Below are positions 11,644 to 55,285 of a stretch of 64,000 nucleotides of DNA, piece by piece. Source of the DNA: Muricea muricata (lineage: Eukaryota > Cnidaria > Anthozoa > Malacalcyonacea > Plexauridae); contig OY979716.1 of the NCBI GenBank assembly GCA_963855995.1, positions 35,961,818-36,025,817 on the forward strand. The letters are read 5' to 3'. The translations under genes were made by a program, and so were the position numbers. Position 1 is the first letter of the stretch; every line of letters starts with the position of its first letter. The notes under the pieces were generated by a model. The model had not been told where the DNA came from, did no database searches, and saw nothing but the letters and a program-made list of their open reading frames with translations.

Positions 11644-11749
11644 GGAGGGTAGTAATATAGGGTCCGATCGAGCCCCTTTTTTGAGGGGGCGCGAGGGTGC
11701 AGGAGGGGGCGCACACATATTGAGAGGGCGCACCCTCATTAGAATATCG

Positions 11750-12012
11750 TGCCCTGATTGGTCAAACAGCGTACGTACACCCCGTGACGTACACACCGTG
11801 ACGTACGCCATAGTCGCGCCCTGATTGGTCAAACAGCGTACGTACACCCCGTGACGTTCACCCCGTACGTACGCTATTGCTATGCTCTGCTTGGTTGAAC
11901 TGCGTACGTACACACGCCGTGACGTACGTTATAGCCGTGCTCTGATTGGTTAATGGTTGGTCACATAAAACTATATAAATTCGCCGATACGTTTGGACTA
12001 TATAAGTTTACC
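11750..12012 (+). promoter_or_regulatory. Repeated CCAAT-box/CRE-like promoter
   Basis: Four modules begin near 11752, 11818, 11884 and 11939. Each has CTGATTGGT or a variant (inverted CCAAT box); the first three continue into GCGTACGTAC and GTGACGTAC (CRE-like half sites). The array ends in two TATA-type boxes (CTATATAAAT at 11971, and TATAAG at 12001), then the start codon at 12069. The same array recurs in inverse orientation at 20528-20700 and 21040-21160. Confidence 0.6.
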
Positions 12013-12068
12013 ATCGCGTTTTACTTACTACGATCACTAAGCTGTTTAATGGAAACTTGAAGACAAGA

Positions 12069-12557
12069 ATGAATAACCGACGCTCTGCAAGAAGAAGGCG
12101 AGTTCGTGATTGTGGATTTTGTCAGGACGATGTAGGTAAAATACCCGCTGTTGAATATCAGAAGTTGTTTTCACTGATCGAAGTGATATATACACACGCT
12201 GTTTTTACTGAAATCGAGCGACTCTGTGAAGGGAATTGTTGTGGTTGCAAGGTTGATCACCCAAGTCAAAGACAACATGACTGTCTGATGCTGACTGAAG
12301 AAGAAAAATGGGAATTATATTACAAAAAGGCTGTCGCATTACTGAACGAAAATCGATCGGTTTGGGACGAATTTATCGAAGCAACAAGGGTATTAAAACT
12401 GAGCTGTCATAAAGACGCTCTCGAACATTTAAGACACTTAGAGAGAGAGTCTGAAATCGCTTTGTATACTTTGTGGCAACTGCACAGCAATCAGGAAGAC
12501 CGTGAAATGAATTGTATTTTAGGATATCTTGCTTATTGGAGAGAAAGTAATAAATAA
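12069..12557 (+). CDS. Small Cys/His-rich protein of the giant inverted-repeat element
   Basis: A 162-aa protein; the frame is open from 12057 but the first ATG is at 12069. It begins with an Arg-rich stretch (NNRRSARRRRVRD) that could bind nucleic acid or act as a nuclear signal, followed by CGFC. Residues about 50-75 hold a compact probable metal site, CCGCKVDHPSQRQHDC (C-x2-C-x3-H-x5-H-x-C from the second Cys). The rest is charged and helical. A 3-codon upstream ORF (ATG at 12049) precedes the start, TATA boxes lie 70-100 bp upstream and AATAAA follows at 12686, so it looks like a compact self-contained transcription unit. I recognise the HPSQ-containing Cys/His pattern as a type seen in uncharacterised invertebrate proteins but cannot name the family. 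A truncated copy is at 20709-20924. Confidence 0.65.
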   Translation: MNNRRSARRRRVRDCGFCQDDVGKIPAVEYQKLFSLIEVIYTHAVFTEIERLCEGNCCGCKVDHPSQRQHDCLMLTEEEKWELYYKKAVALLNENRSVWDEFIEATRVLKLSCHKDALEHLRHLERESEIALYTLWQLHSNQEDREMNCILGYLAYWRESNK

Positions 12558-12685
12558 CTTTTACTGTCTGAGACATTGTGGTGGTAGTGATTTTGTTTCA
12601 GTAATTTTATTTCAGCGTTTTACTACGAACAGTGTTACGTACGCTATAAGCCGCGCTTTGTTTACATTGTCTGCATTCTTTCAAC

Positions 12686-12691
12686 AATAAA
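12686..12691 (+). terminator. Poly(A) signal AATAAA
   Basis: A canonical hexamer 129 bp after the stop codon of the Cys/His-rich gene. In the matching part of the right arm (near 20505) the hexamer is changed. Confidence 0.5.
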
Positions 12692-12804
12692 AAGGGTTTC
12701 ATATTTCATGTGTCGTGTTTGTGTTGTGTAATATAGTCTAGCTATTATGTGTCGCGTTATATGACCGTGTATTTTGTTTGGTTATTTTGTTGCACAGTTT
12801 GTTT

Positions 12805-13189
12805 ATGAAACGGGCAAAGATATCGATATCTTCGGATACTATTCAGAATATGTTTAGTACCTTAGTTAAAAATTTAAAGAAAGAAGTACGGGTGATATTT
12901 TGCGAGTAAGAAGGATTTATATCGTCATTTTAGTATATGCAACATAACAGGCTCTATCACTATTGCATCAATACATGTAGTTATGTGGCAAAGGATGGTT
13001 AAAGCATGTAAGATTTTGAAGTATCCAGAGTCATCGGCGATGCACGGAGACTACTTTGAAACAACGTTTGATATGTCTTGTTTCATTTGGTTTCAGCTGT
13101 ATTCCGAATCCCAAAGAACAGAGTGTATTAACAATCTTATTGACTATATTATTCGCGTGTGTAAATTAAAATTCACATCAACTGTATGA
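12805..13189 (+). pseudogene. Second small ORF of the giant element, frameshifted
   Basis: An ATG at 12805 opens a frame (MKRAKISISSDTIQN...) that stops at 12909. One frame over, the sequence continues without a stop from about 12897 through SKKDLYRHFSICNITG and MVKACKILKYPES to 13189, with a stop before STV-end. Together they would make a protein of about 125-130 residues with a single frameshift or a small intron near 12897. The inner part is mirrored at 15529-15723 with two amino-acid differences. No known domain was recognised. It might also be two unrelated short frames. Confidence 0.4.
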
Positions 13190-13439
13190 TGTATTATAAA
13201 TCATTTTAAAACTTGCTATATACTATGCATATTCTCTGTGGCTGTAGTATAAGCAAAATCACCAATTGGTTGCCGCTATTCAATCGAGAAATTATGATTT
13301 TTTTGAAGACATTGCATAAGTGAATATAAGTCCTGCGCGATGAGCATCATAACAACTGCTCATAACAACTCTTAAGCACATCCTGATATACTCATGCGAT
13401 CCGAATTATTGGGATTGCAATAGCATGGCTTGGGTGTTT

Positions 13440-13990
13440 TGCTGCGACGGGACTCCCGGGACCTGATTTGTCCCTCCACGGGACTTTGTGTCCCTCCACG
13501 GGACTTTTTGTCCCTCCACGGGACTTTTGTCTAGAAATAAATCTTTAGGAGCACATGCTCAAACAGCATGAGCACTTGCTCATATGCTCACAATTGTCCA
13601 TGAGCACTTCCTCATATGCTCACAATTGCTCATGAGCACTTGCTCATATGCCCACAATCGCTCATGAGCACTTGCTCATATGCTCACAAGAGCACTTGCT
13701 CATTTGCTCATAAGGTAGATTAATATATATATAGTTCTTTGAGACCTAAACACTAACATTATATATTCAAATTATTTTAAGATCCTAAGGCTGGCATGGG
13801 TTCGTTTTGCTGTGACGGGACTCCTGGGACTTAATTTGTCTTTCCACCGGACTTTGTGTCCCTCCACGGGACTTTGTCTAGAAATAAATGTTTATGAGCA
13901 CATGTTCAAACGGTATGAGCACTTGCTCATACGCTGACTGCTAATGAGCAATTGCTCATAATTTGCTCATAAAATTACAGCGCTTCCCAA
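13440..13990. repeat. Arrays of CCTCCACGGGACT and TGAGCA...TGCTCA motifs, left arm
   Basis: Three to four copies of TCCCTCCACGGGACTTT (13475-13530) are followed by about ten TGAGCAnnTGCTCA-type palindromes (13550-13715). A second, shorter round of both motifs lies at 13840-13975. The motifs are short inverted repeats, so single strands could fold into chains of hairpins. The right arm carries the mirror image at 14760-15230. Confidence 0.75.
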
Positions 13991-14024
13991 AAACAGGCCA
14001 ATTCTGGATAGTTAGTCTAGCGGA

Positions 14025-14583
14025 ATGAGCTGCAAGTTTTGTGGGAAAGTATTTAATCGCAACTTCAACCTACGCCGTCACGAAAGAGAATACTGTACAC
14101 TAAAGGATCGAAGAATTCAGGAAATGGATTTCAAAGATAATATTTCAACAAGTTCTATTGATAGTGAGTCCGAAAGTTTAATGGCAACCGGCAATGAGGG
14201 GAAAACGAAGAGCAGTTGGATCCTTGGGTACTATAATTGAAGAAGCAAAGCGACGTAGTGATATTGCTTTAGAGAATGTGAAGGAAATTCTAATAAACAG
14301 AGGTTTAGATGAGCAAACTGTAAGAGATCAAGCATATTCCAATGACTAGCTGAAACTTCAGAAAGAACTAGAAAGCGTTTGCATTTAACACCTTATGTGG
14401 ATGGTACTTAAAAACGATCCAATACATAGAAAAATAATGCTGGCAAAAAATGCATTGATGAAAAACGATGACTTTGACCCAGAAGAAGCTATGGAAGCTG
14501 CTATTGATAAGAGAAAGTTTCTGATAAGAAGACTTTTAAAAGATTATAGTTTTACAAAGGAAAATAATGATGCGGCCGATTAA
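14025..14583 (+). pseudogene. C2H2-type zinc-finger gene in the spacer of the giant element, decayed
   Basis: The start codon sits at the inner edge of the left arm. The first 70 residues contain one finger of the C-x2-C-x12-H-x4-C type (CKFCGKVFNRNFNLRRHERE then YC) followed by a Ser/Glu-rich acidic stretch. The frame then shifts at least twice (near 14200-14230) and has stops near 14347 and 14380. Homologous-looking sequence continues as IIEEAKRRSDIALENVKE, LKLQKELESV, DPIHRKIMLAKNAL and DPEEAMEAAIDKRKFLI to a stop at 14583. The intact ancestor would have had about 185 residues. I cannot name the family; the finger plus charged helical C-terminus suggests a DNA-binding protein of the element. 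Confidence 0.55.
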
Positions 14584-14715
14584 TTGTTCTCTACATGAGC
14601 GTGTTAATGAAGTATACTTCGTAGAATTAATGAACAAAGTCTGCTTTTCTTTTCAATTCTTAATAAATTTATCAAATACATATCTAAGTCTGGTGTCATC
14701 CCTCGAGGTTTATAT

Positions 14716-15889
14716 CTCATTCCGCTAGCCTAACTATCCAGAAATGGTCTGTTTTTGGGAAGCGCTGTAATTTTATGAGCAAATTAGTGAGCAGGTGCTC
14801 ATAAGAAGTTGTGAGCGTATGAGCAAGTGCTCATACCGTTTGAGCATGTGCTCATAAACATTTATTTCTAGACAAAAGTCCCGTGGAGGGACAAATTAAG
14901 TCCCGGGAGTCCCGTCACAGCAAAACGAACCCATGCCAGCCTTAGGATCTTAAACTAATTTGAATATATAATGTTAGTGTTTAGGTCTCAAAGAACTATA
15001 TATATATTAATCTACCTTATGAGCAAATGAGCAAGTGCTCTTGTGAGTATATGAGCAAGTGGTCATGAGCAATTGTGAGCATATGAGCAAGTGCTCATGA
15101 ACAATTGTGAGCATATGAGCAAGTGCTCATGCTGTTTGAGCATGTGCTCCTAAAGATTTATTTCTAGACAAAAGTCCCGTGGAGGGGCAAAAAGTCCCGT
15201 GGAGGGACAAATCAGGTCCCGGGAGTCCATTCGCAGCAAAACACCCAAGCCCATGCTATTGCAATCCCAATAATTCGGATCGCATGAGTATATCAGGATG
15301 TGCTTAAGAGTTGTTATGAGCAGTTGTTATGATGCTCATCGCGCAGGACTTATTATGAGCAGTTGTTATGATGCTCATCGCGCAGGACTTATATTCACTT
15401 ATGCAATGTCTTCAAAAAAATCATAATTTCTCGATTGAATAGCGGCAACCAATTGGTGATTTTGCTTATACTACAGCCACAGAGAATATGCATAGTATAT
15501 AGCAAGTTTTATAATGATTTATAATACATCATACAGTTGATGTGAATTTTAATTTACACACGCGAATAATATAGTCAATAAGATTGTTAATACACTCTGT
15601 TCTTTGGGATTCGGAATGCAGCTGAAACCAAATGAAACAAGACATATCAAACGTTGTTTCAAAGTAGTCTCCGTGCATCGCCGATGACTCTGTATACTTC
15701 AAAATCTTGCATGCTTTAACCATCCCTTGCTACGTAACTACATGGTGCAATAGTGATAGAGCCTGTTATGCTGCATATACTAAAATGACGATTTGAATCC
15801 TTCTTACTCGCAAAATATCACCTGTACTTATTTCTTTAAATTTTTAACTAAGGTACTAAACATATTCCAAATAGTATCCGAAGATATCG
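14716..15889. repeat. Right arm of the giant inverted repeat, inner part
   Basis: This is the reverse complement of about 12830-14029. It carries the mirrored TGAGCA arrays (14770-14860, 15020-15165) and CCACGGGACT motifs. A local duplication of about 39 bp (TTATGAGCAGTTGTTATGAT...) occurs at 15315-15395 and is absent from the left arm. The arm stops at 15889, where the YR retrotransposon begins, and resumes at 20390. Confidence 0.8.
15529..15723 (-). pseudogene. Mirrored copy of the second small ORF
   Basis: A 64-aa frame from MVKACKILKYTES to FTSTV, identical to the frame at 12983-13189 except for two residues (Pro to Thr, Tyr to His). The upstream ATG present in the left arm reads ACG here. 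Both arms are nearly identical at DNA level, so conservation does not itself show selection. Confidence 0.4.
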
Positions 15890-16423
15890 TTAATATCTGT
15901 CGTCGCAATACTTACCCATGTGGATGGTTAGGTGCAGACGTGTTCCGCTACTTATCTGGGGATTTGAGTTACTTGGAATCAGGTCCAACTCTCTTTGACC
16001 TGTCCATGCAGGACCTGACCACCGAACGTCTGCACCTTATCACACCGAACATTGTTCAGTGGAAGTTAAGTCATGACTGCACTGATTGCATTAAGAAAAA
16101 AAAAATTTTCTAATATTTGCGCTTTGGCTTTTCCTCTATACAGTGCACCGCTCCTGCTGGCTGTCTGATAGCTAATGTTCTGTGTGCCAGCTTGGCGCTC
16201 TCTATACCGGTCGCTTTAGGCTATCATAGGTCGTGCCCAGACTGCACGCGGCTCTTATGATATTAACCTAGGTTATTACATAACCTCATTTAATATCTGT
16301 CGTCGCAATACTTACCCATGTGGATGGTTAGGTGCAGACGTGTTCCGCTACTTATCTGGGGGTTTGAGTTACTTTGAACCAGGTCCAACTCTCTTTGACC
16401 TGTCCATGAACGACCTGACCACC
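15890..16423 (-). repeat. B2-A2-B1 repeat block of the YR retrotransposon
   Basis: Two copies of a 134 bp sequence (15890-16023 and 16290-16423, 400 bp apart, few differences) enclose a copy (16098-16289) of the sequence that also forms the other end of the element at 20202-20389. About 75 bp of unique sequence separates the first B copy from A2. Confidence 0.8.
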
Positions 16424-16569
16424 AAAGTGATATTTGATTCAAATTTCACCACTCCAAGGAACTCAAACCCTCCACACGGCTACACCCCCAGTGACAACCA
16501 CATGTGTCCGCGAAGTGCGAGATATGTCAGGATGATGCTAGCTCTACTATGGCCCAGACCCGATTGTGA

Positions 16570-17180
16570 AACTGTGCTGCGGTCATAACAGTTAGCCCAG
16601 GACAAGACCCCGCTGCTAAGTTGTACTGCGCTCAAATCAATATTAGCAAAGCGACCAAACCCAACTGCTGAGCTGTTCTACGGTCATATCAATTAGCAAA
16701 GGGACCAGACCCAATTGCTAAGCTGTGCTGCGCTCATATCAATTAGCAAAGGGACCAGACCCAATGGCTATGCTGTGCTGCGCTCGTATCAATTAGCAAA
16801 GGGACCAGACCCAATTGCTAAGCTGTGCTGCGCTCATATCAATTAGCAAAGGGACTAGACCCAATTGCTAAGCTGTGCTGCGCTCATATCAATTAGCAAA
16901 GGGACTAGACCCAATTGCTAAGCTGTGCTGCGCTTATATCAATTAGCAAAGGGACCAGACCCAATTGCTAAGCTGTGCTGCGCTCATATCAATTAGCAAA
17001 GGGACCAGACCCAATTGCTAAGCTGTGCTGCGTTGATAAGCTAGGAACGGGACGAGACCCAATTGCTAAGCAGTGCTGCACTTATAACTTAGCAAGGCGA
17101 CCATATGCAATTCCTGAGCCGCGCTGCGCCCATAAATTAGCGGAAGGACCCCACCCAATTGCTACGCTGCGCTGTTCATA
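16570..17180. repeat. 50 bp tandem repeat inside the YR retrotransposon
   Basis: About twelve units, each with AATTAGCAAAGGGACCAGAC followed by CCAATTGCTAAGCTGTGCTG. The central seven units are nearly identical and the flanking ones diverge. The period is exactly 50 bp (units start at 16741, 16791, 16841 and so on). It occupies the place where a recombinase gene would be expected. Confidence 0.85.
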
Positions 17181-17398
17181 CTAATTGGCAAACGACAGGA
17201 CGCACACGCGCTGCTCCCATGTGCGTTAGCTGTAGCAAGGCACTAGGCCCGAGACCAAATGAGACTACATTGTTTGGTTATTTTGTTGTTTGCTTGTTTG
17301 TTTTTTTTTTTTGTTTATTATTATTATTACTATTCTGTATGTTGAAACCGATATTAATCAAGCTATATTACAAACAATATTACAAATAATATGGAGTT

Positions 17399-20194
17399 CT
17401 ACGAGTTCAGACGTACTAGCAAGGACGGAGGAATAGCTACTGGTACTGGTTGGGACCGTGGAGCCAGCTGACGAAATACCTGCATGATAAAACGAGACAA
17501 GGAATCCGTAATAGCATTTTCCTTGCCCGGCACGTGTTTCGCGGTAATCATGAAATTAAAGTGGGCAGCGCACAAGAAAAGTTCTCTCAGCAGCTGCATA
17601 AGGCGAGTGTCTTTAGACGTGCCAGATGAAATTACCGCGTCGACCCCTTGGTTGTTACAACAGAATTGGATGCGGCGATCGCGCCATTTACTACCCCAAA
17701 CATGGCATGCAATGACTATCGGGAAAAGTTCTTTATACGCGATACTTAGTGACTGTTGAGCAGCAGACCTCGAGTCGTTGAACCATTCGCCAGAGTAGAA
17801 TGCCCCATACTCTTTGCTACCCGATGCGTCGGTAGTGAGAAAAAGGTCAGGAACGGGGGCCCAGTAAGGTAAATCAAAGAAATATACACCGTCCCAGTTA
17901 GGCAAAAGAGATCGCCACCATTCAATGTCCAATTTACATTCTTTATTAAGGCGTATAAATCGACATTGTTTGCCAGAATGGCCTTTCAACAGGTCAAGTA
18001 AGCGACGTAAGAAGGTACGGCCTTGAGGGACGACTGTACATGCATGGCTTAATTTCCCCACTAACGACTGGAGGTCTTTTAGTTTGCGCAAGCGCTTTTT
18101 GGCCCATTCTTCAAGTAATTCAATAAGCTCTTTGCGTTTGTCAGCGGGCAACCTAGCGGTCATGCGCACTGAATCTAATTCAATCCCTAAGAAAATCAAA
18201 CACGTTGGAGGGCCTACGCATTTTTCTGGGGATAAAGGTATGCCAATTTCTGTCGCGGCCTGGTCATTCGCTTTCAAACGCGGGCCACAAATATCCGACG
18301 AGGGGGGTCCTGAGGTAAAGTAATCGTCGAGGTAGTGTAGCAAGTCGAGAACGTTCCAGTTGTTAACTAAACACCAGCGAAAAATATCAGCGAGACTATT
18401 AAAAATGGCAGGTGCTGAACGCAGGCCAAACGGTAATGCCAGATCAAGATAGTAACCACCTTGCCAAAACATTCCCAATAAATGACGGTCGGAAGGATGC
18501 ACTGGAATTATGCGATAAGCGCTTTTAATATCCACTTTACCCATTAGTGCACCACGTCCGGCTTTAATGATTAGTGAAATGGCATCCAACACTTTACTAT
18601 AAGTTAGTGTAAATTCCTCTTTAATAATCCTATCATTTACGCTATGCCCAAAGAAAAACGATAAATCGAGAATTAAACGCCACCCACCGTCTTTCTTGGG
18701 GATCACACCAAACCGGTTTATCTGTAAATTATTCGCGGGTGGGGTAGCTGTAGGCCCAAACACACGGCCTAAAGATACCTCTTTCGCAAGATAGTCGTGA
18801 ATTACTGAGGGATGCTTTTGAGAAGATGGACAGTTTGCTTTGGCTGATTTTAACTTTATTGATTCAGGATGAAATCCAAGTCGAAACCCCTCACGGAAGC
18901 CGGTTAATACGTACTCAACTTTATGTCGATCTGGATGGCCATATAATTGTACTGACAGATTATCTACATTAATTGGTGCGACCGATGAAATGTCAGGAAG
19001 TTCAAAATTATTTTGCACAAGTAAACAAGAAAAAATGTTAATCTTATTAGCACTGTCAACGCCGTCTCGGCTAATCGCGGCTTGCGTATCGCCTACGGCT
19101 TCGTTCGTCTCCAGGACTACGCCCTCGTTTGCGCACGAATTCCTGGCACTCGATTCTGCGGTGTGGGCCATCACACGCAGCCCGATCACATTTGTGGCGA
19201 ATCTACAATACTCACGAGGACTACTACAAGCCCCCGTATTCCACGATTTACAGGCAATCGAGGCATTTTGATTACTGCGAGGTTCGCGCGGGTGAGATAT
19301 TTGCGGTCGACTGGTTTGTACCGCAACCGATGTATGATAATGGTACAAATCGGAGTTGATCTGACTCCAATTTAGCAAATTAGACGCAGCTGCTTGGAGG
19401 CAAAAGGCGCGATCATAATTGTACCAACAACGTCCTGGGAATTGCTCAGCGATACGTATTATAAGGGCCATATATGCGAGCAAGTCCCGAGTCCGTGCAG
19501 GTCGAACCGATGTGATAACTGCGATATAACTGTTAAAACAGTCGACCCAAGTGATAATATCATGAATATCACCTCTTTTGCGCGAAGATGTGGTGGTCGT
19601 GCGCACAATCGAGCGACCTTCGATGAGGAAGGACGGTATTTCGGGTGAAGGGTTCTCTAAATTGTCGGGGAGCAAGTCCGCCAGTTCTATAAACTTGTAC
19701 ACTAAAATTTGCGTTACTAGTTTGGCCGGGATAGGTGGGCGTCCTGGTCCCAGAATGAAGGCCCTACTGAAGCCACTATTGACGCCTGACGATACGATGG
19801 GGGGAGAAACCGGGAGCTCCGAAATTGTTGTCTCGTGGGTCAGATCAACCTGAGGGGCTGCACTCGATTGTGTCAACGAGGACGATCCCGAAATCCCAAT
19901 AAATGATGGAGCCGTTAACGTACGTTCATATGCTGCATGTGCTTCCGACGTGCTTACCGTCGCTGTGGGACAGACATCACCCAATTGCTCCAGCGCCGCT
20001 ACCGAGGATTCATTGGATCCACGTGCTCCAACAGTTTTTTCGATAGCGCCGGCTACGATCGACTGAAGACCAGGACAAAATTCAGGCGATTTGAAGGCTG
20101 CTGCCCAATCCACTGCCGTCGACGATGAGCCAGTTGGGCGATCATTCACGTTTTCATTATCCATATATTCCATATCAACACACGAGTACCACAA
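17399..20194 (-). CDS. gag-reverse transcriptase-RNase H protein of the YR retrotransposon
   Basis: A 931-aa single ORF; an alternative start MEYMDNENV lies seven codons in. Residues 1-360 are gag-like: a Ser/Thr-rich region, then PGRPPIPAKLVTQIL, FIELADLLPDN, DIITWVDCFNSYIAV, AEQFPGRCWYNYDRAF and a Cys motif CKSWNTGACSSPREYC. Normal relatives have a zinc knuckle here; the segment after it looks scrambled. The RT follows (about 480-700): FGVIPKKDGGWRLILDLS, MGKVDIKSAYRIIPVHP (first Asp), LPFGLRSAPAIFN and HYLDDYF (catalytic YLDD). An RNase H-like region follows (LFLTTDAS, then AKHVPGKENAITDSLSR). No methyltransferase domain is seen. Gag and RT are fused in one frame here. Confidence 0.85.
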   Translation of the reverse strand: MWYSCVDMEYMDNENVNDRPTGSSSTAVDWAAAFKSPEFCPGLQSIVAGAIEKTVGARGSNESSVAALEQLGDVCPTATVSTSEAHAAYERTLTAPSFIGISGSSSLTQSSAAPQVDLTHETTISELPVSPPIVSSGVNSGFSRAFILGPGRPPIPAKLVTQILVYKFIELADLLPDNLENPSPEIPSFLIEGRSIVRTTTTSSRKRGDIHDIITWVDCFNSYIAVITSVRPARTRDLLAYMALIIRIAEQFPGRCWYNYDRAFCLQAAASNLLNWSQINSDLYHYHTSVAVQTSRPQISHPREPRSNQNASIACKSWNTGACSSPREYCRFATNVIGLRVMAHTAESSARNSCANEGVVLETNEAVGDTQAAISRDGVDSANKINIFSCLLVQNNFELPDISSVAPINVDNLSVQLYGHPDRHKVEYVLTGFREGFRLGFHPESIKLKSAKANCPSSQKHPSVIHDYLAKEVSLGRVFGPTATPPANNLQINRFGVIPKKDGGWRLILDLSFFFGHSVNDRIIKEEFTLTYSKVLDAISLIIKAGRGALMGKVDIKSAYRIIPVHPSDRHLLGMFWQGGYYLDLALPFGLRSAPAIFNSLADIFRWCLVNNWNVLDLLHYLDDYFTSGPPSSDICGPRLKANDQAATEIGIPLSPEKCVGPPTCLIFLGIELDSVRMTARLPADKRKELIELLEEWAKKRLRKLKDLQSLVGKLSHACTVVPQGRTFLRRLLDLLKGHSGKQCRFIRLNKECKLDIEWWRSLLPNWDGVYFFDLPYWAPVPDLFLTTDASGSKEYGAFYSGEWFNDSRSAAQQSLSIAYKELFPIVIACHVWGSKWRDRRIQFCCNNQGVDAVISSGTSKDTRLMQLLRELFLCAAHFNFMITAKHVPGKENAITDSLSRFIMQVFRQLAPRSQPVPVAIPPSLLVRLNS

Positions 20195-20201
20195 AATAAA
20201 A

Positions 20202-20389
20202 ATTTTTCTAATATTTGCGCTTTGGCTTTTCCTCTATACAGTACACCGCTCCTGCTGGCTGTCTGATAGCTAATGTTCTGTGTGCCATCTTGGCGCTCTC
20301 TATTACCGGTCGCTTTAGGCTATCATAGGTTGTGCCCAGACTGCGCGCGGCTCCTATGATATTAACCTTGGTTATTACATAACCTCATT
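20202..20389 (-). repeat. A1 terminal repeat of the YR retrotransposon
   Basis: A 188 bp direct copy of 16098-16289, differing at a few positions. It forms the 5' end of the element and probably holds its promoter. The gag-RT start codon lies within 10 bp of its inner edge. Confidence 0.75.
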
Positions 20390-20705
20390 AAACAATACTG
20401 TGCGACAATACTGTGCGACAAAATAACCAGACAAAATACACGGTCATATAACTAGACTATATTACACAATACAAACACGACATATGAAATATGAAACCCG
20501 TAATTGTTGAAAGAATGCAGACAATGTAAACAAAGCGCGGCTATGGCGTACGTCACGGGGTGTACGTCACGGGGTGTACGCACGCTGTTTGACCAATCAG
20601 GGCACGATATTCTAATGAGGGTGTGCCCCCTCAATATGTGTGCGCCCCCTTTTGCACCCTCACGCCCCCTCAAAAAAGGGAGTTGACCGGCCCCTATATT
20701 ACTAC
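20390..20705. repeat. Right arm of the giant inverted repeat, outer part
   Basis: Sequence resumes the mirror of the left arm (CAAAATAACCAGACAAAA onward), including the region after the poly(A) site, then jumps directly to the promoter modules and the terminus ending CCTATATTACTACTA. The Cys/His-rich gene is deleted in this arm. A short duplication of ACAATACTGTGCGAC at 20393-20420 marks the YR insertion point. Confidence 0.65.
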
Positions 20706-20708
20706 TAC

Positions 20709-21275
20709 TCAGTCATGTTGTCTTTGACTTGGGTGATCTACCTTGCAACCACAACAATTCTCTTCACAGAGTCGCTCGATTTCAGTAAAAACAGCGTGTG
20801 CATATATCACTTCGATCAGTGAAAACAACTTCTGATATTCAACAGCGGATATTTTATCCACATCGTCCTGACAAAATCCACAATCACGAACTCGCCTTCT
20901 TCTTGCAGAGCGTCGGTTATTCATTCTTGTCTTCAAGTTTCTATTAAACAGCTTAGTGATCGTAGTAAGTACAACGCGATGGTAAACTTATATAGTCCAA
21001 ACGTATCGGCGAATTTATATAGTTTTATGTCACCAACCATTAACCAATCAGAGCACGGCTATAGCGTACGTCACGGGGCATACGTACGCTGTTTTAACCA
21101 ATCAGAGCGCGGCTATGGCGTACGTCACGGGGTGTACGTACGTTTTTCGACCAATCAGCGCGCGGCATTCTCGCATACTAATTAGTGCGGCACCCTGTGG
21201 AGGCTTGCGCAACCTCGCGCAGCCTCACGCAACCTCACGCAGCCTCAAAAAAGGGGCTCGAAAACCTCCTACTAT
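20709..21275 (-). mobile_element. Truncated second copy of the giant element's terminal region
   Basis: Starting at a terminus near 21275 and reading leftwards: CGAGCCCCTTTTTTGAGG, promoter modules with GATTGGT and GTGACGTACG, then the start of the Cys/His-rich gene (20924 down to 20709, about 72 codons, ending in the HPSQRQHD motif). It is cut where the right terminus of the main element lies. It differs from the left arm by several substitutions, so it is an older or separate copy. Confidence 0.6.
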
Positions 21276-21500
21276 ACTACTTTGAAAGTTCCAACAAAAT
21301 ATTTCAAGATTTAGAATATCTGCCTACTTAACGCAGATTTATCAAGAAGTAATAAACGTAAATTTAGAGATTTAAAGAGTAAAGCACATTGTGCAGATTA
21401 ATGATGATTAAGCGTCACATTTCTTAGCTAATCAGAATCGAGCACTCTGACAAAAAGGATATAACTGGTCGAAAACATAGTCTTATTGAAGTGTACTGAC
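21276..21500. other. No gene recognised
   Basis: AT-rich sequence next to the SRCR exon. A frame with DLSRSNKRKFRDLKSKAH (about 21325-21390, plus strand) is open but short and unassigned. Confidence 0.4.
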
Positions 21501-21818
21501 CTGCTTCACATTCTACACCGGCATCATTCGAATGATTGCGGTTGCGTCCAATAATTCCAGAATAACTGCAATACAAGAGTTGTGATTCATCACCTACGCA
21601 ATCCACAACATCAAACAATATTGGGCCACTTCCTTCTCCATAATAAGCGTCACATCTTACTTGTTTGGCACCTGAGAATCCCAGCTCACGGCACACGACA
21701 TCACCATCATGAATATCCCAAAAATCATCGCGGATTGTACCCCAGCCAAGCTCAGGGTCATAAAGCTCGACTCTTCCACTCCAACTGTTGTATGAACCAC
21801 TCAGTCGGACTACTAAAG
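21501..21818 (-). CDS. Single SRCR-domain exon
   Basis: This encodes one complete scavenger receptor cysteine-rich domain, an extracellular ligand-binding module. The order of motifs is VVRLSGS, GRVELYDPELGWGTI, DDFWDIHDGDVVCRELG, DCVGDESQLLYC and NDAGVECEA. GTIRDD lacks the first Cys of group B domains, so it is nearer group A; five cysteines are visible. The acceptor is TTTTTATAG just before 21818 and the donor is CAG|GTCAGTAC just after 21501. Both splits are phase 1, the usual arrangement for SRCR modules, so this 318 bp exon belongs to a larger minus-strand gene. The apparent signal peptide upstream of VVRL is intron sequence read through. No other exon of the gene was found here. Confidence 0.85.
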
Positions 21819-21849
21819 CTATAAAAAGAAATAAAACTTGATAAAACAC

Positions 21850-53849: not shown

Positions 53850-54870
53850 CTTTGTCAGCATGTCGAAAGTCTAACTGACAACTTGTGGGCATGTACAGGT
53901 CAAAGTCTAACGGACATCTTGTCAACGAGCCAAAAGCCTTACCGACATCTTGTCAACAAGCCAAAAGCCTCACCGACATAAGGCTAGCCGACATCTTGTC
54001 AACAAGCAAAAAGCCTTACCGACATCTTGTCATCAAGCCAAAAGCCTTACCGGCTTCTTGTCAACAAGCAAAAAGCCTAACCGACATCTTGTCAACAAGC
54101 CAAAAGCCTTACCGACATCTTGTCAACAAGCCAAAAGCCTTACCGGCATCTTGTCAACGAGCCAAAAGCCTAACCGACATCTTGTCAACAAGCCAAAAGC
54201 CTTACCGACATCTTGTCAACAAGCCAAAAGCCTAACTGACAACTTATCAATGAGCCAAAAGCCTAACCAACATCTTGTCAACAAGCCAAAAGCCTAACCG
54301 ACATCTTGTCAACAAGCCAAAAGCCTAACCGACATCTTGTCAACATGCCAAAAGTCTAACTGACAACTTGTCAACAAGCCAAAAGCCTAACCAACATCTT
54401 GTCAACAAGCCAAAAGCCTAACCAACATCTTGTCAACAAGCCAAAAGCCTAACTGACATCTTGTCAACAAGCCAAAAACCTAACCGACATCTTGTCAACA
54501 TGCCAAAAGTCTAACTGACAACTTGTCAACAAGCCAAAAGCCTAACCGACATTTTGTCAACATGCCAAAAGCCCAACTAAGTAACTAACATCTTGTCAAC
54601 ATGCCAAAAGCCCAACCAAGATCTTGTCAACATGCCAAGTGTTTAACTAGGAGCATATCAACATGTCAAAAGTCCATTTTAAAGCTTGTCCACACATCAA
54701 AAGACTAACTCAGATCTTATCAACATGTCAAAAGTCTAGTCGAAAACTTGTCAACTAGTCAAAATCCTTACTAACATTTTATAAACATGTCAAATATTTA
54801 CCTGACACCTTATCAACACATCAAATATCTAATTCAAAGCTTGTCAATATATCAAAAGGCTAGCCAACAT
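53850..54870 (+). repeat. 31 bp satellite array
   Basis: About 32 units of AAAAGCCTAACCGACATCTT followed by GTCAACAAGCC. The centre is homogeneous and both ends degrade, as expected if exchange keeps the middle uniform. As 31 is not a multiple of three, all frames stay open and give repetitive 93-nt-period ORFs, which are not genes. The array lies between two direct copies of CCCAACAAATTATAT-GTGG (53419 and 54874). Confidence 0.9.
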
Positions 54871-55285
54871 TTTCCCAACAAATTATATTGTGGAGACTTC
54901 AGGCAGTGTGCTACAGAATAAGATTTAAATGATGCTATCAGGTTAATATATTGATGTATTGTATAGACTTTTAGTAAAATTTTCTTTACTTGCAAAATAA
55001 AACAGCTATATGTTGGTGGTATTATGACAAAAGAATCTTGTTTAACATATGTACTATGAAAGTCTTTAATTTAAATTAAATTCTAAAAAATGCAATCCTA
55101 CTAGGACTCTGGACAAAGTGCCCGGCAGGTCACTCAGACATTGATTTTTGGTTATCTTAGTGATTACATAAGATTTGCTAGCAATGTCTTACTGGTAAAA
55201 TGCCTTGGAAGGTACCCTAATAATAATTGATTTAAAAAGGAATTAGTTGGGCAGAACAGAAATAAGTGAATATACCCCACCCCCA

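Follow-up and report, generated by a model that had tools for sequence, protein, structure and literature searches.

A gene-bearing inverted-repeat element of the anthozoan Muricea muricata, very probably a decayed copy of a non-autonomous Maverick/Polinton family

Layout of the inverted-repeat element

A 64,000-nucleotide stretch of the Muricea muricata genome (assembly GCA_963855995.1, contig OY979716.1, positions 35,961,818 to 36,025,817; hereafter the window, numbered from its first letter) harbours, from position 11648, a long inverted repeat that carries small genes and arrays of the palindrome GAGCAnnTGCTC. We conclude that this element is very probably a rearranged and decayed copy of a multi-copy, non-autonomous (satellite) family of the Maverick/Polinton type. 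The supporting evidence consists of ends shared with proviruses, Maverick-type target-site duplications, palindromes that have multiplied, ratios of non-synonymous to synonymous substitution rates (dN/dS) below 1, and linkage between a gene and its array.

The left arm runs from 11648 to about 13.97 kb, is followed by a C2H2 gene, and faces a right arm that begins at about 14.7 kb. On the forward strand it opens with the terminus GTAGTAATATAGG... (11648–11740), which could be aligned with the ends of eight fetched satellites and three provirus ends, and which corresponds to the family's AGTAGTAATATA with a single substitution, the first A being replaced by G. This leads into a tandem CCAAT/TGACGTAC promoter-type array with a TATA-like stretch (11741–12000, forward strand), identified from the sequence and from motif counts: the window contains seven copies of TGACGTAC, every one inside the element, where 0.98 were expected and the highest count in shuffled sequence was five. 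Next come, on the same strand, a Cys/His-rich accessory gene of 162 codons (12069–12557), which has relatives elsewhere in the genome and whose open reading frame (ORF) is intact in this copy, and a 68-residue ORF (12983–13189), probably the C-terminal remnant of a second accessory gene, which matches the C-terminal part of a 156-residue protein at another locus, L033 (39% identity, E-value 1e-11). The arm closes with a repeat array of GTCCCn5GGGAC and GAGCAnnTGCTC palindromes (13470–13957). All 14 copies of GAGCAnnTGCTC in the window fall within 13549–15149 (0.02 expected), and folding the palindrome array as single-stranded DNA gave z = -4.7.

The C2H2 gene (14025–14583, forward strand; zf-C2H2, E-value 1e-5) is broken in this copy, consisting of a 71-residue ORF (14025–14240) followed by stops. 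By self-comparison and motif counts, the inner right arm (14716–15892, reverse strand) is an inverted copy of the 12.8–14.0 kb region, complete with a GAGCAnnTGCTC array at 14789–15149. The rest of the right arm (20405–20706, reverse strand) comprises the promoter array and the terminus ...TATATTACTACT, whose end at 20706 is canonical for the Maverick end motif; the Cys/His gene is missing from it. Identity between the arms reaches, for example, 98% (12974–13371 against 15347–15744) and 91% (11649–11826 against 20528–20705). Between about 15.9 kb and 20.4 kb the right arm is broken by an interval holding a nested retroelement (16096–20392, reverse strand) that is bounded by direct repeats of about 200 bp (16096–16293 and 20194–20392), encodes a 931-residue ORF (17399–20194, reverse strand) with an RVT_1 match in Pfam (E-value 5e-10), and contains a tandem array of a 50-bp unit (approximately 16592–17088). 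Directly beyond the right terminus, self-comparison and end alignment revealed a second, partial element end (20707–21281, reverse strand) with a promoter array, a terminus of a second type, AGTAGTATAGTAGG, and about 75 codons of the Cys/His gene with one stop inside.

These results partly confirm a preliminary description of this DNA, the interpretation of which is likewise supported in part. Self-comparison, ORFs and motif counts bore out the long inverted repeat with its promoter-type array, Cys/His ORF and palindrome arrays. The statement that both arms carry the same genes holds for the left arm but not for the interrupted right one, and the enclosed C2H2 gene is real but broken. The element had been taken to stop at 20705, whereas the repeat goes on to the second partial end at 21281. 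Since the nested retroelement has its own RVT_1 ORF, the report that no polymerase could be recognised was wrong for the interval; it stands for the element proper, and neither a PolB match nor a match to a provirus integrase (L032, below) was found in the window.

Outside the element, an ORF at 21424–21849 (reverse strand) resembles what we take to be a scavenger-receptor cysteine-rich domain, which would suggest an animal host. A single 1-kb bin (54001–55000) is strand-asymmetric, with a GC skew of -0.35 and an AT skew of 0.24, unlike its neighbours.

A multi-copy family sharing its ends with proviruses

Within the 453-Mb assembly that contains the window, searching with 1.5 kb of the left arm returned at least 69 matches (40 of 628 first-look candidates scored), so that the arms cannot be a unique local duplication. 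We then sampled 20 stretches at 16 places in the same genome. Inverted arms of at least 300 bp were present in 12 of the 16 fetched elements, the longest pairs being 96–99.9% identical; none of that length was found in L019, L021, L026 or L027. Outer arms (up to 2 kb) were 98.4–100% identical to their own partner in ten copies, and in eight of the nine that could be compared (C3_20M had no comparable other copy) this exceeded the identity to the best other copy. The measured copies span 5–13 kb.

Ten satellites start with AGTAGTA and finish with TACTACT, and most arm ends had been located first without the motif. In the ten with both ends, the flanking 6-bp target-site duplication was perfect in eight (CATGCG, AACGAT, CCTGTG, GATTTA, CATACT, CATATT, AATTTA and AAGGTC), matched at 5 of 6 positions in one and was absent from one. 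Published Mavericks are described with (AGT)2 // (ACT)2 end motifs and 6-bp duplications (PMC8097293), and rve integrases typically yield duplications of this length (PMC12220804).

Polymerase pieces of at least 100 residues, 89–96% identical to the provirus locus L031, lie inside satellites L009–L012 and L015–L020. Neither the L032 integrase (in any of the 20 stretches) nor the hexon-like provirus protein described below found a match in the satellites, in which no intact polymerase, integrase or capsid-type gene was found. With only polymerase pieces there, and no integrase match in the window or the 20 stretches, the suggestion of a self-contained small-genome element is not supported.

A genome search with a polymerase piece (150 rows; 150 of 260 candidates scored) revealed 51 pairs of convergent fragments within 8 kb and none in the opposite order. 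Their spacing is 1380–1420 bp in 40 cases and exactly 1410 bp in 24. This near-constant spacing in one orientation implies that a palindrome with a single centre has multiplied; and since three fetched members with such spacing (L011/L012, L009/L010 and L015/L016; 1380, 1396 and 1396 bp) have perfect 6-bp duplications, the palindromes must have multiplied in that form. In addition, the 3' half of the C2H2 gene adjoins codon 150 of the C-terminal polymerase ORF of L031 at four junctions in three elements (L017 3427/3431, L018 5495/5499, L020 3494/3498 and L019 4551/4571), a shared chimeric junction of satellite and provirus sequence. A second satellite subfamily is represented by a C2H2 palindrome in L037 (1975–7319) with different ends (AGTAGTTCTTTACCCCC), the ORF2 relative of which is 90% identical to one in L033.

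Places with unpaired polymerase fragments led to provirus loci. The provirus L031/L032 has AGTAGTAATATA ends and a 6-bp duplication, TACCAC (one of one examined). L032 encodes an rve integrase (E-value 4e-14) and a GRF zinc protein (E-value 1e-19), and the locus has a weak packaging-ATPase match below the cut-off (Pox_A32, E-value 0.0014). Its polymerase was assigned through a weak match between the L017 piece and a PHROGs polymerase (E-value 0.0023), through 31% identity over 71 residues to the L036 polymerase, and through motifs that we take to be of polymerase type. A second provirus, L035/L036, has an open 1374-residue PolB (PF03175, E-value 5e-52), an integrase with both rve (7e-13) and Chromo (1e-11) matches, a GRF match (4e-17) and a sub-threshold adenovirus-protease match (0.0066). 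Between L035/L036 and L032 the integrases are 57% and the capsid-type proteins (445 residues in L035, 448 in L032) 46% identical. The latter match no Pfam family; we call them hexon-like on a presumed resemblance that no search here confirmed. The same applies to the OTU resemblance that we presume for the provirus PolB, the proviruses giving no OTU match in Pfam. Searches of PDB sequences returned nothing for a C-terminal piece of PolB and one weak match, to a cysteine protease (E-value 0.024), for the protease-like protein. Separately, polymerase loci at C6:12570651, C1:96938001, C1:67712911, C1:90038533, C3:27664251, C13:6415868, C14:10327310 and C1:17047583 share one 1301-residue open frame with near-equal scores, which suggests a recently multiplied provirus family.

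Satellites and proviruses are joined by their termini. Satellite L024 and provirus L031 do not differ anywhere in their first 39 bp, and an alignment of 14 ends resolved two end types, each containing a provirus plus satellites; in the second, provirus L030 is grouped with satellite L014 and with the end at 21281 of the window. The type-2 provirus, L029/L030, retains polymerase pieces, and no integrase lies in the fetched stretch. The first proposal, of a non-autonomous element from some mobile or viral lineage, is upheld by the ends, the duplications, the termini shared with proviruses and a gene family that occurs next to PolB; an unfamiliar lineage outside the common element classes is not, given the Maverick ends, the 6-bp duplications and termini held in common with an rve-encoding provirus locus. 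An unknown class of element was likewise rejected on provirus gene content, end alignment and duplications.

It is also very improbable that the family is a foldback-type or other long-inverted-repeat DNA transposon, non-viral in nature, whose Maverick ends were simply acquired. Foldback-like elements commonly have long inverted arms and an ORF for a zinc-finger protein; the (AGT)2 ends, the 6-bp duplications and the 39-bp identity to a provirus end argue otherwise, and the sole transposase-like ORF noted in the fetched copies, in L017, appears to be a nested insertion. This 587-residue ORF (L017 4535–6295) matches DUF4371 (E-value 3e-15), presumably marking a hAT-like transposon inserted in the satellite arm.

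Accessory genes and the palindrome array

The 162-residue Cys/His protein, searched with its L013 copy, has at least 151 matches in the genome (150 of 428 candidates scored), ranging from identical satellite copies to relatives that are about 31–50% identical. In a direct comparison, the product of the gene beside the 1374-residue PolB (L036:5627–6115) is 42% identical to the window protein (E-value 4e-39). More generally, a PolB row is found no more than 15 kb from 24 of 107 Cys/His rows below 60% identity (random mean 0.93, maximum 5 in 500) and from none of the 20 rows at 60% or above. Here PolB positions are the listed PF03175 rows, with many second pieces per locus left out, Cys/His and C2H2 positions exclude second pieces of the same locus, and the random control used guessed sizes for contigs C4, C6, C7, C11 and C13 and skipped contigs such as C51 and C58. 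Six Cys/His relatives share invariant C57, G59, C60, C72, L73 and M74, a conserved block that suggests a putative zinc site. The protein matched no Pfam model, nothing in PHROGs better than an E-value of 0.15 and, searched as the L013 copy, nothing among PDB sequences (best E-value 0.23); AlphaFold2 modelled the window protein alone as mostly helical, with a predicted local distance difference test score (pLDDT) of 51.

The C2H2 protein has at least 196 genome matches (150 of 715 candidates scored), many of them full-length and open at about 60% identity, and intact relatives of 171 residues occur elsewhere in the genome. Its gene is closely associated with the palindrome array. Among the fetched loci, window included, 12 have a C2H2 match of at least 80 residues, and ten of these (L013, L014, L021–L025, L037, L038 and the window) carry 7–38 GAGCAnnTGCTC motifs. 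C2H2 remnants of 35–45 residues in L017–L020 are accompanied by 4–5 motifs, and there are no motifs in L009–L012, L015, L026, L027, L029–L033, L035, L036 or L039. Genome-wide, double GAGCAnnTGCTC sites, which are palindromic and so read the same on both strands, number 844, and the reversed pattern does not occur. We measured the association in C1:1–13.82 Mb, which holds 50 of the 844 double sites, counting PolB rows one per piece. Each of the nine listed C2H2 rows, which represent 7 loci, has a double site no more than 0.6 kb away, where 0.04 of the 7 were expected, and none of the 20 PolB rows lies within 2 kb, the nearest being 3.0 kb away. Of the 16 array clusters there, seven are close to a listed C2H2 row. 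An array of this kind also accompanies the gene in the diverged L037 (about 61% C2H2 identity), so the two have remained linked while the sequences moved far apart.

We regard the C2H2 protein and the GAGCAnnTGCTC arrays as a testable candidate protein–DNA pair. Because the motif contains CANNTG, a host E-box factor is a rival candidate for binding the array. A further alternative is that the array has a purely structural role as a hairpin. From sequence we infer only that the array might act in origin function, segregation, packaging or transcription control, with all of which these data are equally compatible.

Substitutions were compared using hits that covered 90% of the query and lacked stops, and no significance test was applied. 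Against the L013 copy, dN/dS was 0.29–0.34 for the Cys/His gene (five copies) and 0.13–0.18 for the C2H2 gene (three copies); the remaining Cys/His pairs with both non-synonymous and synonymous differences gave 0.12–0.59. Changes per pair within the family are few (0–10 non-synonymous and 0–7 synonymous). Between C2H2 subfamilies dN is 0.22–0.23 with dS saturated (73–80 non-synonymous against 68–74 synonymous changes); the L034 relative, which contains a stop, was omitted from the C2H2 alignment.

These values bear on another reading, in which the copies are ordinary dead deletion derivatives, produced by internal deletion and inverted duplication and having no biology of their own, with frames that survive since the insertions are young. 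The polymerase pieces at 89–96% identity inside some copies, the clear decay of the window copy and the few changes behind the dN/dS values are all in keeping with it, as is the finding that most vertebrate Maverick copies are defective (PMC8097293). We nonetheless consider it rather unlikely, in view of the near-equal spacing of 40 of 51 fragment pairs together with perfect 6-bp duplications in the three fetched, the C2H2 dN of 0.22–0.23 at saturated dS, and the linkage of C2H2 gene and arrays across about 60% protein identity.

Origin, mode of life and relation to known systems

How such palindromes might arise is suggested by protein-primed replication. We give an even chance to a copy-back origin, in which replication of a provirus end would switch to its own displaced strand and yield a genome made up of that one end twice over, in inverted orientation, so that the end genes would lie in both arms. 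Because the satellites have kept both provirus-type ends, proviral PolB could copy them and proviral integrase insert them, in trans. More tentatively, the Cys/His and C2H2 genes may have been retained for their benefit to the satellite, which in the case of C2H2 would most likely come from the protein acting on the adjoining GAGCAnnTGCTC arrays; both this action and mobilisation in trans are proposals that we draw from sequence. The window copy would later have been disrupted when the retroelement inserted, some of the right arm was lost and the second partial element became joined to it.

Several observations weigh against this account, in addition to the few changes and the selected, significance-untested hits behind the dN/dS values. 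No single provirus locus combines all features: the L032 integrase has the rve match only, with no chromodomain match in Pfam; the L031/L032 polymerase is split over three ORFs, none of which matches any Pfam model, and its locus is not among the listed PF03175 rows of the genome; and no AGTAGTA end was found in the fetched stretch of L035/L036. The window copy has the substituted first base, lacks a target-site duplication (TTGGAG on the left, ACTCAG or TTGAAA on the right) and shares with L030–L032 only short end and promoter stretches (about 100–220 bp at 80–93%). Among the satellites, it was the motif search itself that supplied the ends of L011/L012 and L014, the own arm of C2_24M is less similar (98.70) than another copy (99.22), and the flanks of L037 show no perfect 6-bp duplication. 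As for the genes, C2H2 rows do not cluster with listed PolB rows, one of which lies no more than 15 kb away for 2 of 99 (0.5 expected) and for 0 of the 17 near-identical ones; of the fetched loci with capsid-type genes, L034 alone has a C2H2 relative, and that one is broken; and L038 combines relatives of C2H2, Cys/His and GRF, but neither it nor the adjoining L039 gave a polymerase, integrase or hexon-like match. Finally, L016 and L034 have diverged C2H2 matches and zero motifs, L028 has 6 motifs without a C2H2 match, and no listed C2H2 row accompanies 9 of the 16 array clusters, although the list covers 150 scored candidates out of 715 and one of the nine is L019 with its C2H2 remnant.

On balance, the satellites are probably parasitic on the Maverick (adintovirus-like) proviruses with which they share a genome. 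In its fullest form, this reading makes them a genuine lineage of satellites that bear genes and depend on animal Maverick/adintovirus proviruses, with copy-back palindromes, replication and integration in trans, a C2H2/GAGCAnnTGCTC module of its own that is absent near the PolB rows tested, and a hundred or more copies; this is a serious possibility, if one that we would stop short of calling probable. A step further, the satellites might form a satellite-virus lineage, packaged in the provirus capsid besides being copied, with Cys/His and C2H2 proteins serving hijacking or interference. Termini in common with a locus carrying capsid-type genes, own genes at dN/dS below 1 and sheer copy number (at least 196 C2H2 matches; 844 double-array sites) would fit, although packaging is putative, the elements being known here as DNA sequence, and IMG/VR scans with short peptide patterns, which mostly reach close relatives, found none for the 162-residue protein, the Cys/His family alignment, the C2H2 protein, the hexon-like protein or the 1374-residue PolB; we judge this lineage unlikely.

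Mavericks are usually treated as whole proviruses or as fossils. If our reading is true, it would suggest that they also sustain parasites of their own in a germline. The satellites would then document copy-back during protein-primed replication as it occurs in nature, and would resemble virophages and P4-like elements in being parasites that exploit other parasites, here within an animal genome. For annotation, the locus is a warning that long inverted repeats with unfamiliar small genes can be Maverick satellites.

Among known systems, the satellites resemble Mavericks/Polintons in their end motifs, 6-bp duplications, terminal inverted repeats and, in several copies, PolB remnants; they differ in having no PolB gene or rve integrase match, and many copies are inverted nearly throughout, their repeats bearing genes. 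Adintoviruses are defined by a PolB with an OTU-like domain, which lies at the N terminus, a hexon and an rve integrase with a C-terminal chromodomain (PMC11071296). The satellites share an accessory gene family and termini with adintovirus-like proviruses of the same genome but have none of the defining genes, and rve with Chromo was found in provirus L035. Miniature inverted-repeat transposable elements (MITEs) are short and without coding capacity (PMC3517528). Like these and other non-autonomous DNA transposons, the satellites are multi-copy and would depend on a relative for movement, yet they are 5–13 kb long and have relatives with intact 162- and 171-residue genes at dN/dS below 1. With virophages and P4-like satellites, as we understand them, they may share parasitism on a larger element and the retention of own genes; unlike these, they show no capsid-type gene and are known here from DNA. 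Copy-back (snap-back) defective genomes of protein-primed replicons such as adenovirus likewise have one end inverted and duplicated into a palindrome, whereas the satellites are integrated and multiplied in a genome; a literature search on this point yielded no paper. The accessible parts of the literature on non-autonomous, satellite, palindromic or deletion-derived Mavericks and adintoviruses describe no such elements, which is weak evidence of absence. The class of the element is already known, a Maverick derivative; what is unusual is the long palindromic form of most fetched copies, the retained Cys/His and C2H2 genes at dN/dS below 1 and the tie between the C2H2 gene and the GAGCAnnTGCTC arrays.
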